NCBI GenBank assembly: GCA_028713655.1
Contig: JAQTNW010000007.1
Coordinates: 1 to 64,000 of the forward strand
DNA from: Candidatus Methylacidiphilales bacterium
GTDB lineage: Bacteria; Verrucomicrobiota; Verrucomicrobiia; Methylacidiphilales; JAAUTS01
Length of the DNA stretch: 64,000 bases
Reading direction: 5' to 3'
Part shown: in pieces, positions 26,581 through 53,713 of the stretch
Numbering within the stretch: position 1 is the stretch's first letter
Layout: each line of letters starts with the position of its first letter
Translations under genes and position numbers: made by a program
The notes under the pieces: generated by a model
Told to the model about the DNA's origin: nothing
The model's database searches: none
What the model saw: only the letters and a program-made list of their open reading frames with translations

Positions 26581-27042
26581 ACCACGAAGACACCAAGTCA
26601 CGAAGTTTTGGCCGCTAAAAAGCGCAAAAATTGGGCGGAAAGTTTTCAAACCACAGCCAAATCCGGTGTTGTTCTTGTGAAATCATTCTGCTTTTCATCC
26701 TGTCAATCCCGTTAATCCTGTTAAAAATACGTCCTGCCTTTCCTTCGCTGCTTTGTTTGCCCGCCACGGCGGGCTTTAGCGGACATGAAAACCTTTTTTG
26801 GGGAAAGTGGGATTAATAATTTTGCCGCGATTTCCTCTTGAACCGCGGCCCATGCCGCGGCAATCTTTCGTTTTGTCCACAAAACGCGCTCGTGGCGTTT
26901 GCGTGCCGCTATAGCGGCCTTCCCAACCAGCCGGAGGCCATTTGGCAACAACCTGGGGCAACAGGGGGTTCAATGATTTCGCCACGATTTCGTCTTGAAC
27001 CGCGGCCCCAGCCGCGGCAATCTTTCGTTTTGTCCACAAAAC
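26581..27042. other. Intergenic region with dispersed phrases and a 73-bp direct repeat
   Basis: After carB the sequence has dispersed phrases (CACGAAGACACCAAGTCACG at 26583-26602; CCCGTTAATCCTGTTAAAAA at 26708-26727; GCCCGCCACGGCGGGC at 26759-26774). The first copy of the tRNA-Leu-proximal direct repeat follows at 26825-26897. No gene is convincing in either strand. Confidence 0.6.
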
Positions 27043-27054
27043 GCGCTCGTGGCG
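26825..27054. repeat. 73-bp direct repeat pair that includes the 5' end of tRNA-Leu
   Basis: 26825-26897 and 26982-27054 are nearly identical (a handful of mismatches), each running through GCCGCGGCAATCTTTCGTTT to CAAAACGCGCTCGTGGCG. In the second copy the last 12 bases are the start of the functional tRNA-Leu; the first copy is a truncated tRNA 5' end with no body. Confidence 0.85.
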
Positions 27055-27123
27055 AAATGGCAGACGCGCAAGCTTGAGGTGCTTGTGGGGTAACCCATGG
27101 AGGTTCGAGTCCTCTCGAGCGCA
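27043..27123 (+). tRNA. tRNA-Leu (anticodon GAG)
   Basis: 81 bases. The acceptor stem GCGCTCG (27043-27049) pairs with CGAGCGC (27116-27122), discriminator A at 27123, CCA not encoded. The anticodon arm is CAAGC TTGAGGT GCTTG with anticodon GAG. The long variable arm TGGG-GTAA-CCCA and a T-arm with GGTTCGAGTCC confirm a class II leucine tRNA reading CUC and CUU codons. Both its 5' and 3' ends lie in duplicated DNA. Confidence 0.93.
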
Positions 27124-27446
27124 ATTCCCCGTGCGATAACAAACCATCGCGTCATTGCGAGGAGTTCAGGCGCAGTCTGAACGACGTGGCAATCCAGAAC
27201 ACAGCCGCAAAGCGGCTTATTCTCAAAACGAAGTCATCCCGCAACATTTCAGCTTTGCTGAAATAATCCTCTCGAGCGCAATTCCCCGTGCGATAACAAA
27301 CCATCGCGTCATTGCGAGGAGTTCAGGCGCAGTCTGAACGACGTGGCAATCCAGAACACAGCCGCAAAGCGGCTTATTCTCAAAACGAAGTCATCCTGCA
27401 ACATTTCAGCTTTGCTGAAATAATCCTCTCGAGCGCAAATTCCCCC
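27111..27446. repeat. Tandem 157-bp repeat carrying the tRNA-Leu 3' end
   Basis: The unit 27111-27267 begins inside the tRNA T-arm (CCTCTCGAGCGCAATTCCCC) and is repeated at 27268-27424 with one mismatch seen (27231 c to 27388 t region). A third, truncated start is at 27425-27446. The unit contains GCGTCATTGCGAGGAG, a small palindrome GTTCAG...CTGAAC and the hairpin ATTTCAGC-TTT-GCTGAAAT. From 27447 to 27632 nothing further was recognised. Confidence 0.9.
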
Positions 27447-42428: not shown

Positions 42429-42736
42429 AGGTTTATTTGTGGTTTTAGAGGAAGAACGCAAATGTTAGATAAATTCTTACCAACATTCTCCGTGCACATG
42501 GTTATTTACTCTGGATTGCCGCGTCGGCGGGACTTTGCCCACCTCCTCGCAATGACGCATGAACGTGCGGCAGAATAAATACAATATGCTCTATTACAAA
42601 GCGGCGGCGGCATTGGATTTTTCAAAAAACCATCTCCTGAATCTCCGTCATCTCGTTGTTAAAAGACATCTTCTTCTTCGCGTTCCTTTGCGATCTTCCT
42701 GTCAAATATCTTTTTTAAGTTTTTGTCGGCCAGGTT
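42429..42736. other. Intergenic region, one inverted MITE-like phrase
   Basis: ATTGCCGCGTC near 42514-42524, and TCCTCGCAATGACGC at 42543-42557, are reverse copies of the two ends of the phrase inside the tRNA-Leu 157-bp repeat (GCGTCATTGCGAGGAG). The rest is AT-rich filler with TTCCTTTGCGATCTTCCTGT (42682-42701), related to 48272-48292. No gene was found. Confidence 0.5.
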
Positions 42737-53443: not shown

Positions 53444-53528
53444 GGGCAGGTGGCAGAGCGGTCGATTGCGCACGCTTGGAAAGCGTGTGTACCTCACGGT
53501 ACCGGGGGTTCGAATCCCCCCCTGCCCG
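53444..53528 (+). tRNA. tRNA-Ser (anticodon GGA)
   Basis: 85 bases. Acceptor GGGCAGG (53444-53450) pairs with CCTGCCC (53521-53527), discriminator G at 53528, CCA not encoded. The anticodon arm CACGC TTGGAAA GCGTG has anticodon GGA at 53478-53480, and the variable arm GTACC-TCAC-GGTAC plus T-arm GGGGGTTCGAATCCCCC are typical of a class II serine tRNA reading UCC and UCU codons. Confidence 0.95.
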
Positions 53529-53713
53529 GGACTTTGTCCCGGCCCCCGCGACAGCGGGAGTCTTTAATCGATTCGAACAAAGTTCGGCGTCTTCGCGTCA
53601 GCGAATTCAATCAAATCAACGCATTCTCCCGCTACGTCACGCAGCAGCGGGATGGACAATCCCCCCCTTGCCCGGGACTTTGTCCCGGCCCCCGCGATAG
53701 CGGGAGTCTTTAA
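53513..53713. repeat. Duplicated tRNA-Ser 3' end and downstream terminator, two copies
   Basis: 53513-53567 (tRNA T-stem end, acceptor 3' half, terminator) and 53658-53713 are nearly identical over about 55 bases (AATCCCCCC then CCCGGGACTTTGTCCCGGCC and CGGGAGTCTTTAA). The second copy is not a tRNA but a 3'-end fragment. About 90 bases of unrelated sequence lie between. From 53714 to 53903 only dispersed phrases were seen. Confidence 0.85.
53526..53565 (+). terminator. Terminator-like hairpins after tRNA-Ser
   Basis: CCGGGAC (53526-53532), TTT loop, GTCCCGG (53536-53542), then a second stem CCCGC (53545-53549) with GCGGG (53554-53558) and a short T-run (TCTTT). The first stem overlaps the mature tRNA 3' end by three bases. 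A copy of the whole arrangement lies at 53671-53711. Confidence 0.55.

Follow-up and report, generated by a model that had tools for sequence, protein, structure and literature searches.

Tandem repeats built on the 3' end of a tRNA gene are known from the tyrT/tyrV locus of Escherichia coli, where they are called rttR or tpr and are represented in Rfam by the family RtT, and an RNA function has been proposed for them. In E. coli K-12 they have 3.1 copies at a period of 178: 19 nt of the tRNA-Tyr tail recur without mismatch at +178, +356 and +534 of one of the two genes, the copy begins at T-loop position 58, the spacer holds a hairpin (TTCGACC..GGTTCGA) and the boundary reads AATCC. Homing endonuclease genes of fungal mitochondria offer another parallel, because their insert brings a replacement for the 3' part of the target gene; these cases differ from the present one in that they concern protein genes, introns and organelles.

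Phage T6 encodes a GIY-YIG homing endonuclease, SegB, whose cuts fall within tRNA genes and favour the motif RAWTSGAAC (23 of 83 mapped sites), and without which a segment holding a tRNA is not amplified in tandem by recombination (PMC13096335). tRNA genes are also the targets of genomic islands. Partial tRNA copies are reported to arise from integration (PMC9897764), phage Ms6 is described as using the T-loop of a tRNA-Ala (PMC1762012), and the Islander survey, which lists as tDNA subsites the anticodon loop, the T loop and a junction, drops candidates shorter than 2 kb or without an integrase (PMC4383910). In the open-licence literature, judged mostly by titles and the beginnings of abstracts, we found no paper on chromosomal GIY-YIG elements that repeat tRNA tails.

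The present study concerns a tRNA-Leu(GAG) gene in a 64,000-nucleotide stretch (the window) of a Candidatus Methylacidiphilales genome, a 3.29-Mb draft in 90 contigs. Downstream of this gene, tandem units each carry its 3' end, as in repeats of the tyrT/rtT type; an intact tRNA is accompanied by a displaced 3' fragment, as at genomic islands; and the duplicated 3' end has its boundary in the T-loop, as would be expected of a tRNA-targeting GIY-YIG homing element. The array is one of several such structures at different tRNA genes of this genome, and these resemble the footprints that very small, tRNA-directed insertions would leave.

The array downstream of tRNA-Leu(GAG)

The tRNA-Leu(GAG) gene is intact and occupies positions 27043-27123 of the forward strand (ARAGORN; Rfam RF00005, 52.7 bits). 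Its last 14 bases, together with a spacer of 143 bp, form a first unit of 157 bp (27110-27266, found by Tandem Repeats Finder, a repeat finder and our own script), which is followed on the same strand by a second unit of 157 bp (27267-27423; Tandem Repeats Finder and script) and by a partial third copy (27424-27438; script) that consists of the tRNA tail TCCTCTCGAGCGCA plus one base, i.e. 15 matching bases, before it diverges. With its default score, Tandem Repeats Finder delimits the array at 27110-27445 (period 157, 2.1 copies, 98% matches) and reports it as the only one in the 64-kb window. A preliminary description had noticed the tandem repeat, which is real, at positions one base away from those given here, and had called its first two copies almost identical; they agree in 156 of 157 bases, in perfect register from 27110 and with a single difference (C at 27240, T at 27397), which fits a recent amplification step. 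The tail copy begins in the T-loop, at position 58 according to the script and at 59/60 by eye.

The unit itself contains no ORF, of the GIY-YIG type or otherwise, and no inverted T-arm in its spacer. A carbamoyl-phosphate synthase large-chain gene lies upstream of the array and an AraC-type regulator downstream; among ten ORFs between 20986 and 42242, Pfam searches revealed neither an integrase nor a transposase, and two of the ten have no Pfam family at all. The GIY-YIG profile PF01541 has no match on the contig of the window. At gathering score, an Rfam scan of the window returned two tRNAs only and no RtT (RF00391), and a search of 60 relatives with the spacer listed, apart from matches in its own genome, only such as cover the tRNA end of the query.

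A further duplication, missed by the preliminary description, lies upstream: the 5' flank of the intact tRNA-Leu together with its first 12 bases (26963-27054, forward strand; repeat finder and script) are present a second time at 26806-26897 on the same strand, with 83 of 92 bases identical. The spacing of these two copies is 157 bp, exactly that of the downstream units.

A segment that reads GCGTCATTGCGAGGAG...GACGTGGCAATCCA (27148-27203 in unit 1, again at 27305-27360 in unit 2, both on the forward strand) recurs in inverted orientation at 42510-42558, as a search against the own genome revealed. The phrase GCGTCATTGCGAGGAG had been recognised earlier both in the unit and inverted at 42.5 kb, and it is indeed located at 27149 and 27306 (forward) and at 42543-42558 (reverse); with up to two mismatches it has three matches in the window, against 0.05 expected by chance. 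Because the stretch at about positions 39-94 of the unit has matches at 11 further sites of the genome, including 42510-42558, GCGTCATTGCGAGGAG is a dispersed repeat caught inside the unit, and a reading of it as the trace of a parent element was dropped. We take this family to be REP-like. In its dispersed form it reads GCGTCATTGCGAGGAG...GACGYGGCAATCCA, and by eye some tRNA units elsewhere (L301, L305) have a comparable end, GAGCGAAGCGAC...CAATCC. As regards REP/MITE-like repeats, 27148-27203 belongs to such a family, whereas it is at tRNA ends that the arrays as such are situated.

The right part of the unit (27202-27266, forward strand, repeated at 27359-27423) leads to another contig, C1, where it is 88% identical over 65 bp (C1:24878-24942, minus strand) to a unit. 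In comparison with the C1 unit, the REP-like segment of the window unit replaces the left half, which on C1 holds an inverted T-arm. The C1 unit shares 20 of 20 bases with the spacer at tRNA-Ser(GGA). The minus strand of C1 carries a 5' half of tRNA-Leu(CAG) (54311-54273), the full gene (49724-49643) and a 3' half (25062-25013), and it is this 3' half that precedes the unit related to that of the window. An integrated element of 24-29 kb at this tRNA was considered and rejected, since no integrase was noticed by eye among the ORFs, the integrase matches of the genome include none on C1, and several ORFs look housekeeping-like by eye.

Tail repeats at other tRNA genes and in relatives

Among 43 tRNAs predicted by ARAGORN in this genome (G000; G001-G005 denote genomes of the same family, L numbers loci and C numbers contigs), several are followed by tandem units: at tRNA-His (period 97, 2.3 copies), tRNA-Ser(GCT) (period 141, 2.8 copies) and tRNA-Gly(TCC) (period 149, 2.1 copies), while tRNA-Ser(GGA) and tRNA-Ser(CGA) are each followed by one unit and one further imperfect tail copy. 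The gene for tRNA-Ser(GGA) (53444-53528, forward strand; ARAGORN tRNA scan) is the second tRNA with a tail repeat in the window. Its unit of 146 bp (53513-53658, forward strand) starts with the tail AATCC..., carries an inverted T-arm, GATTCGAAC, in the spacer at 53570-53578, and is followed from 53659 by the imperfect tail copy; unit and copy had both escaped notice previously. In G001, a related genus, tail repeats occur at tRNA-Thr, Ala, Met, Gln and Pro.

A strict count, for which at least 12 exact nucleotides of the tRNA's own last 22 had to recur within 500 bp downstream, misses Gly(TCC) and Ser(GGA) of this genome and still yields tail copies at 4 of 43 tRNAs here, at 5 of 30 in G001 and at 1 of 29 in G003, but at 0 of 21 in G002, G004 and G005 together and at 1 of 44 in a sample of the phylum. 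The tRNAs so covered are 30 of 39 in G001, 29 of 34 in G003 and, for G002, G004 and G005 taken together, 21 of 112. As controls, the 500 bp upstream gave 0 of 167 and isotype-swapped comparisons 7 of 5372.

The individual tRNA that bears a repeat differs between genera. At tRNA-Leu(GAG), no tail repeat was found in any of G001-G005, with only 330 bp of downstream sequence in the case of G004 (L059), and a shared upstream flank of ~115 bp marks the locus in G001 as orthologous. Conversely, the tail repeats at tRNA-Gln(TTG) of G001 and tRNA-Gly(CCC) of G003 are absent here from loci with a similar upstream flank. The preliminary description would have regarded a single copy in all relatives as refuting its reading. 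tRNA-Leu(GAG) does have a single copy in the five same-family genomes in which it was found, with the short flank of L059 in mind, but other tRNAs of relatives carry such repeats, and the difference therefore amounts to presence or absence of a recurrent structure. That these tRNA-tail repeats form a recurrent class with ORF-bearing relatives is well supported.

The units share features of their boundaries and spacers. Of 24 tail copies, 16 have their first base within the T-loop or close beside it (tRNA positions 54-61) and the other 8 at positions 43-50, in a set of copies that was chosen because a copy exists and in which one of the 16 (L194) is doubtful. The spacers of Ser(GGA) and Ser(CGA) are 85% identical over 99 bp, and those of G001 tRNA-Ala and tRNA-Ser(GCT) share 16 of 16 bases, the inverted T-arm among them. 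The T-arm of the own tRNA appears inverted in the spacers of the three Ser, of Gly, His and Pro; this tRNA-specific fit is suggestive only, because T-arms are alike and swapped tRNAs reach matches nearly as long. At tRNA-Pro(CGG) of this genome the inverted T-arm is present and a tail copy absent. The word GATTCGAAC is the reverse complement of the common T-arm word GTTCGAATC and fits the SegB motif RAWTSGAAC, which is exact in the three Ser spacers, whereas the Leu T-arm (GACTCGAAC inverted) is one base off.

A T-arm followed by an inverted T-arm was searched as a pattern in 387 genomes of the phylum and was encountered in seven, this one included, with none for the reversed control. All ten places, two of them in this genome, lie 3' of tRNAs, a position that the T-arm word in the pattern itself favours. 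Seven of the ten have a further tail copy (four by a test of 15 nt with at most two mismatches, three by eye); of the others, one has no visible copy and two sit at contig edges. When the core hairpin was searched without the tRNA word, nine places in seven of the 387 genomes were obtained, with no exact match in this genome. Six of the nine follow a tRNA at a distance of 20-215 nt, and all but one of these six are loci of the T-arm pattern; among the other three, two look coding-like by eye and one falls in an apparent tRNA on the other strand. Weak matches of the Rfam family sX4 at three Ser loci were discarded, as they were driven by tRNA-Ser in the one alignment that was inspected.

GIY-YIG genes beside tRNA genes

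Longer versions, with a GIY-YIG gene placed between tRNA and repeated tail, were encountered within the order when 60 genomes were searched with the profile PF01541; 30 loci were retained, 27 of them with a short frame, beside many more short-frame matches. Nine of these 27 have a tRNA in their 1.5-kb flanks, and in five of the nine the ORF is accompanied by partial copies of the tRNA (tRNA-fMet at L169, L178 and L183, tRNA-Pro at L151/L173, tRNA-Asn at L176), while the remaining four (L159, L167, L171 and L174) have none; five of the nine tRNA-linked loci come from a single genus (g5). The GIY-YIG assignment was confirmed by Pfam in all seven ORFs tested. The locus at tRNA-Asn represents a mirror form, with the ORF upstream, behind a partial 5' copy, and L178 holds two ORF-bearing units in tandem. 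In the partial tRNA copies of L176, L178, L151 and L030, a palindrome, of 16 bases in the first two, replaces part of the anticodon arm by eye.

The genome of the window has two GIY-YIG matches, of which one is UvrC-like and the other, its only free-standing GIY-YIG gene, lies directly 3' of tRNA-Met (ORF at C53:9139-9348). Upstream of this tRNA-Met (L043, G000:C53) we observed five copies of the tRNA's first 26-27 bases, mostly at 94-bp spacing, with a hairpin CCCCGAAAGCATTCGGGG where the anticodon arm is expected and with a run of N inside the array. At tRNA-Met of G001, a 104-bp unit begins by eye with an apparent truncated start of a GIY-YIG ORF. The trailer of tRNA-Gly(GCC) in this genome (L028) resembles by eye the GIY-YIG leader at tRNA-Gly(GCC) of G010 (L159), without the ORF. 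T-arm units occur in six other genomes. In three of them the only GIY-YIG match is long-frame and UvrC-like, and the other three have four short-frame GIY-YIG loci, one of which has a tRNA in its flanks.

A wider scan for one GIY-YIG subfamily in named genomes provided at least 520 confirmed loci. Among the best 80 of these, 53 lie no more than 600 bp from a tRNA, in all 53 cases on the same strand and in 51 with the match downstream of the tRNA, and tRNA density is 0.539 per kb near the match versus 0.028 further off. At 9 of the 51 downstream loci, at least 12 nt of the last 45 of the tRNA occur again within 1 kb downstream (12 of 2278 in swapped comparisons); two of these nine are full 45-nt matches (L218, L237), and at L217, L222, L231 and L237 the best tail copy stands before the ORF. 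A tail copy after the ORF is present in 3 of 51 loci with at most one mismatch (0 of 2278 swapped), although one of these copies is in fact a complete second tRNA, and in 5 of 51 with at most three mismatches (12 of 2278 swapped). With tail copies in 3 to 5 of 51 loci, most of these loci keep no visible one.

Between tRNA and ORF, loci of several phyla (L189-L268) display by eye a hairpin-rich leader, which often begins right after CCA with GCCTTCGC or a near variant; at seven such loci Rfam gave no family for this leader at gathering score. An inverted T-arm had been considered as a feature of this leader and was abandoned, since it is not enriched (4 of 51 versus 115 of 2278 swapped). The T-arm pattern had no match in 50 genomes that hold GIY-YIG genes of the subfamily.

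Origin of the units

The preliminary description had inferred either repeated small insertions or slippage, anchored on the tRNA end, the original element having been lost. Small insertions at the 3' end of the tRNA are the part that fits well, given that the structure recurs at several tRNAs, that orthologues differ and that ORF-bearing versions exist. We read the array as an ORF-less mini-element that would have inserted at the T-loop, restored the tail and been amplified, with a GIY-YIG homing endonuclease as its likeliest agent, and put the probability of this reading at about one half. According to such a scenario, a GIY-YIG nuclease that cuts T-loops or anticodon loops would have opened the T-loop of tRNA-Leu(GAG), and the break would have been repaired with a very small insert that itself supplied the 14 bases with which the tRNA ends. 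Since the element carried these bases, the tRNA would have stayed intact and its original tail would have been pushed downstream, where it would mark the far end of the insert. Unequal recombination between tail copies may then have multiplied the 157-bp unit, and the same class of insert would have reached several other tRNAs of the genome. The short units may be deletion or otherwise non-autonomous derivatives of the ORF-bearing versions, from which the ORF was lost, and would have been mobilised in trans. In favour of this reading are also the related spacers at different tRNAs, the tendency of copies to start in the T-loop and the position of the GIY-YIG subfamily beside tRNAs. The hypothesis of a GIY-YIG agent has against it that the window unit possesses neither an ORF nor the motif, that the T-arm of its tRNA is one base off this motif, and that the sole free-standing GIY-YIG gene of the genome is found elsewhere, at tRNA-Met. 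The UvrC-like matches of three genomes with T-arm units, the lack of enrichment of the inverted T-arm in the leaders, the 50 genomes without the T-arm pattern, the rarity of tail copies after the ORF and the origin of five of nine tRNA-linked loci from one genus also speak against it.

The case of SegB resembles ours in a GIY-YIG gene beside tRNAs, in a motif that fits the inverted T-arm and in tandem amplification. It differs in that a phage is concerned and a whole-tRNA segment is amplified, whereas here the units are chromosomal, only the tail is repeated, an ORF is often lacking and the comparison is drawn from DNA sequence.

The main rival is a tyrosine integrase, which would act in trans on gene-less attP cassettes with a crossover in the T-loop, so that mini-islands accrete in tandem. 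This explanation, which we consider unlikely, draws on the reported property of integrases to leave copies of the tail whose first base falls in the T-loop or the anticodon loop (PMC4383910, PMC1762012), and the genome does contain seven matches to the Phage_integrase family. None of the seven is on the contig of the window, and only one (L323, G000:C12) has a tRNA in its 1.5-kb flanks, namely a tRNA-Asn that shows no tail repeat. An integrase-type parent at the locus, for which the preliminary description had suggested a search, is supported neither by the ten ORFs near the array nor by this lone tRNA-flanked integrase. The ORF-bearing versions examined carry GIY-YIG genes; as they were found by a GIY-YIG search, the absence of an integrase from them is not an unbiased count. 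A DNA circle of 157 bp would moreover be very stiff, which counts against an integrase substrate of this size. The islands described by Islander share with our loci the restored tRNA, the displaced 3' fragment and the overlapping crossover subsites, but differ from units that are far shorter than 2 kb, lack an integrase and stand in tandem at periods of 88-178 bp. The length and integrase filters of that survey mean that mini-islands of this kind would be missed.

Alternatively, no mobile element may be involved, and chance short matches, aided by hairpins, may have seeded unequal crossing-over or slippage into plain tandem duplication, an explanation we also rate as improbable. The near-identity of the two window copies is what recombination would leave, and in RNA folding three of five units are more stable than their shuffles (z -2.8 to -4.3). 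For the unit of the window there is no such gain over shuffles (z -0.92), and plain duplication needs a first event that places a spacer and a second tail behind the tRNA. It also does not lead one to expect related spacers at different tRNAs, or copies that concentrate on the T-loop and lie downstream rather than upstream; in particular, slippage alone, the second half of the earlier inference, leaves the T-loop starts of the copies unexplained.

The repeats might instead be a 3' trailer kept by selection for an RNA function, e.g. pairing with the tRNA end or the titration of processing enzymes. Pairing with the T-arm of the own tRNA is possible for several spacers, and the folding of the three units mentioned would be in keeping with such a role. 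We nevertheless judge it quite improbable, because orthologous tRNAs of different genera do not share the repeats and because the window unit shows neither T-arm pairing nor better folding. In a permissive search of eight loci, the window not among them, the RtT model matched that of E. coli (L270) only. The units share with the tyrT/tyrV repeats the tandem repetition of the tRNA 3' end from the T-loop, and as the model matches E. coli alone, this likeness is one of anatomy and not of sequence family. An assembly artefact, finally, which the draft state in 90 contigs and the run of N in the tRNA-Met array bring to mind (copy numbers may be wrong on that account), is very improbable, as the window copies differ by one base and contain no N and the complete genome of E. 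coli K-12 exhibits the same anatomy.

Returning to the GIY-YIG reading, a more general and distinctly tentative version of it would see in these loci widespread minimal parasites of tRNA genes, i.e. free-standing GIY-YIG cutters of the T-loop, the anticodon loop or the 3' end in bacterial chromosomes, which would insert replacement tRNA ends and leave ORF-less derivatives of 90-180 bp that amplify in tandem, including the array of the window and tyrT of E. coli. What appeared as a local curiosity is placed in a recurrent class of tRNA-tail repeats, and a testable origin is offered for the tyrT repeats of E. coli. A connection is drawn between repeated tRNA tails on chromosomes and the GIY-YIG genes that, in several phyla, are neighbours of tRNAs. 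Attention is also directed to mobile DNA which surveys of the Islander type discard for its length and for its lack of an integrase.
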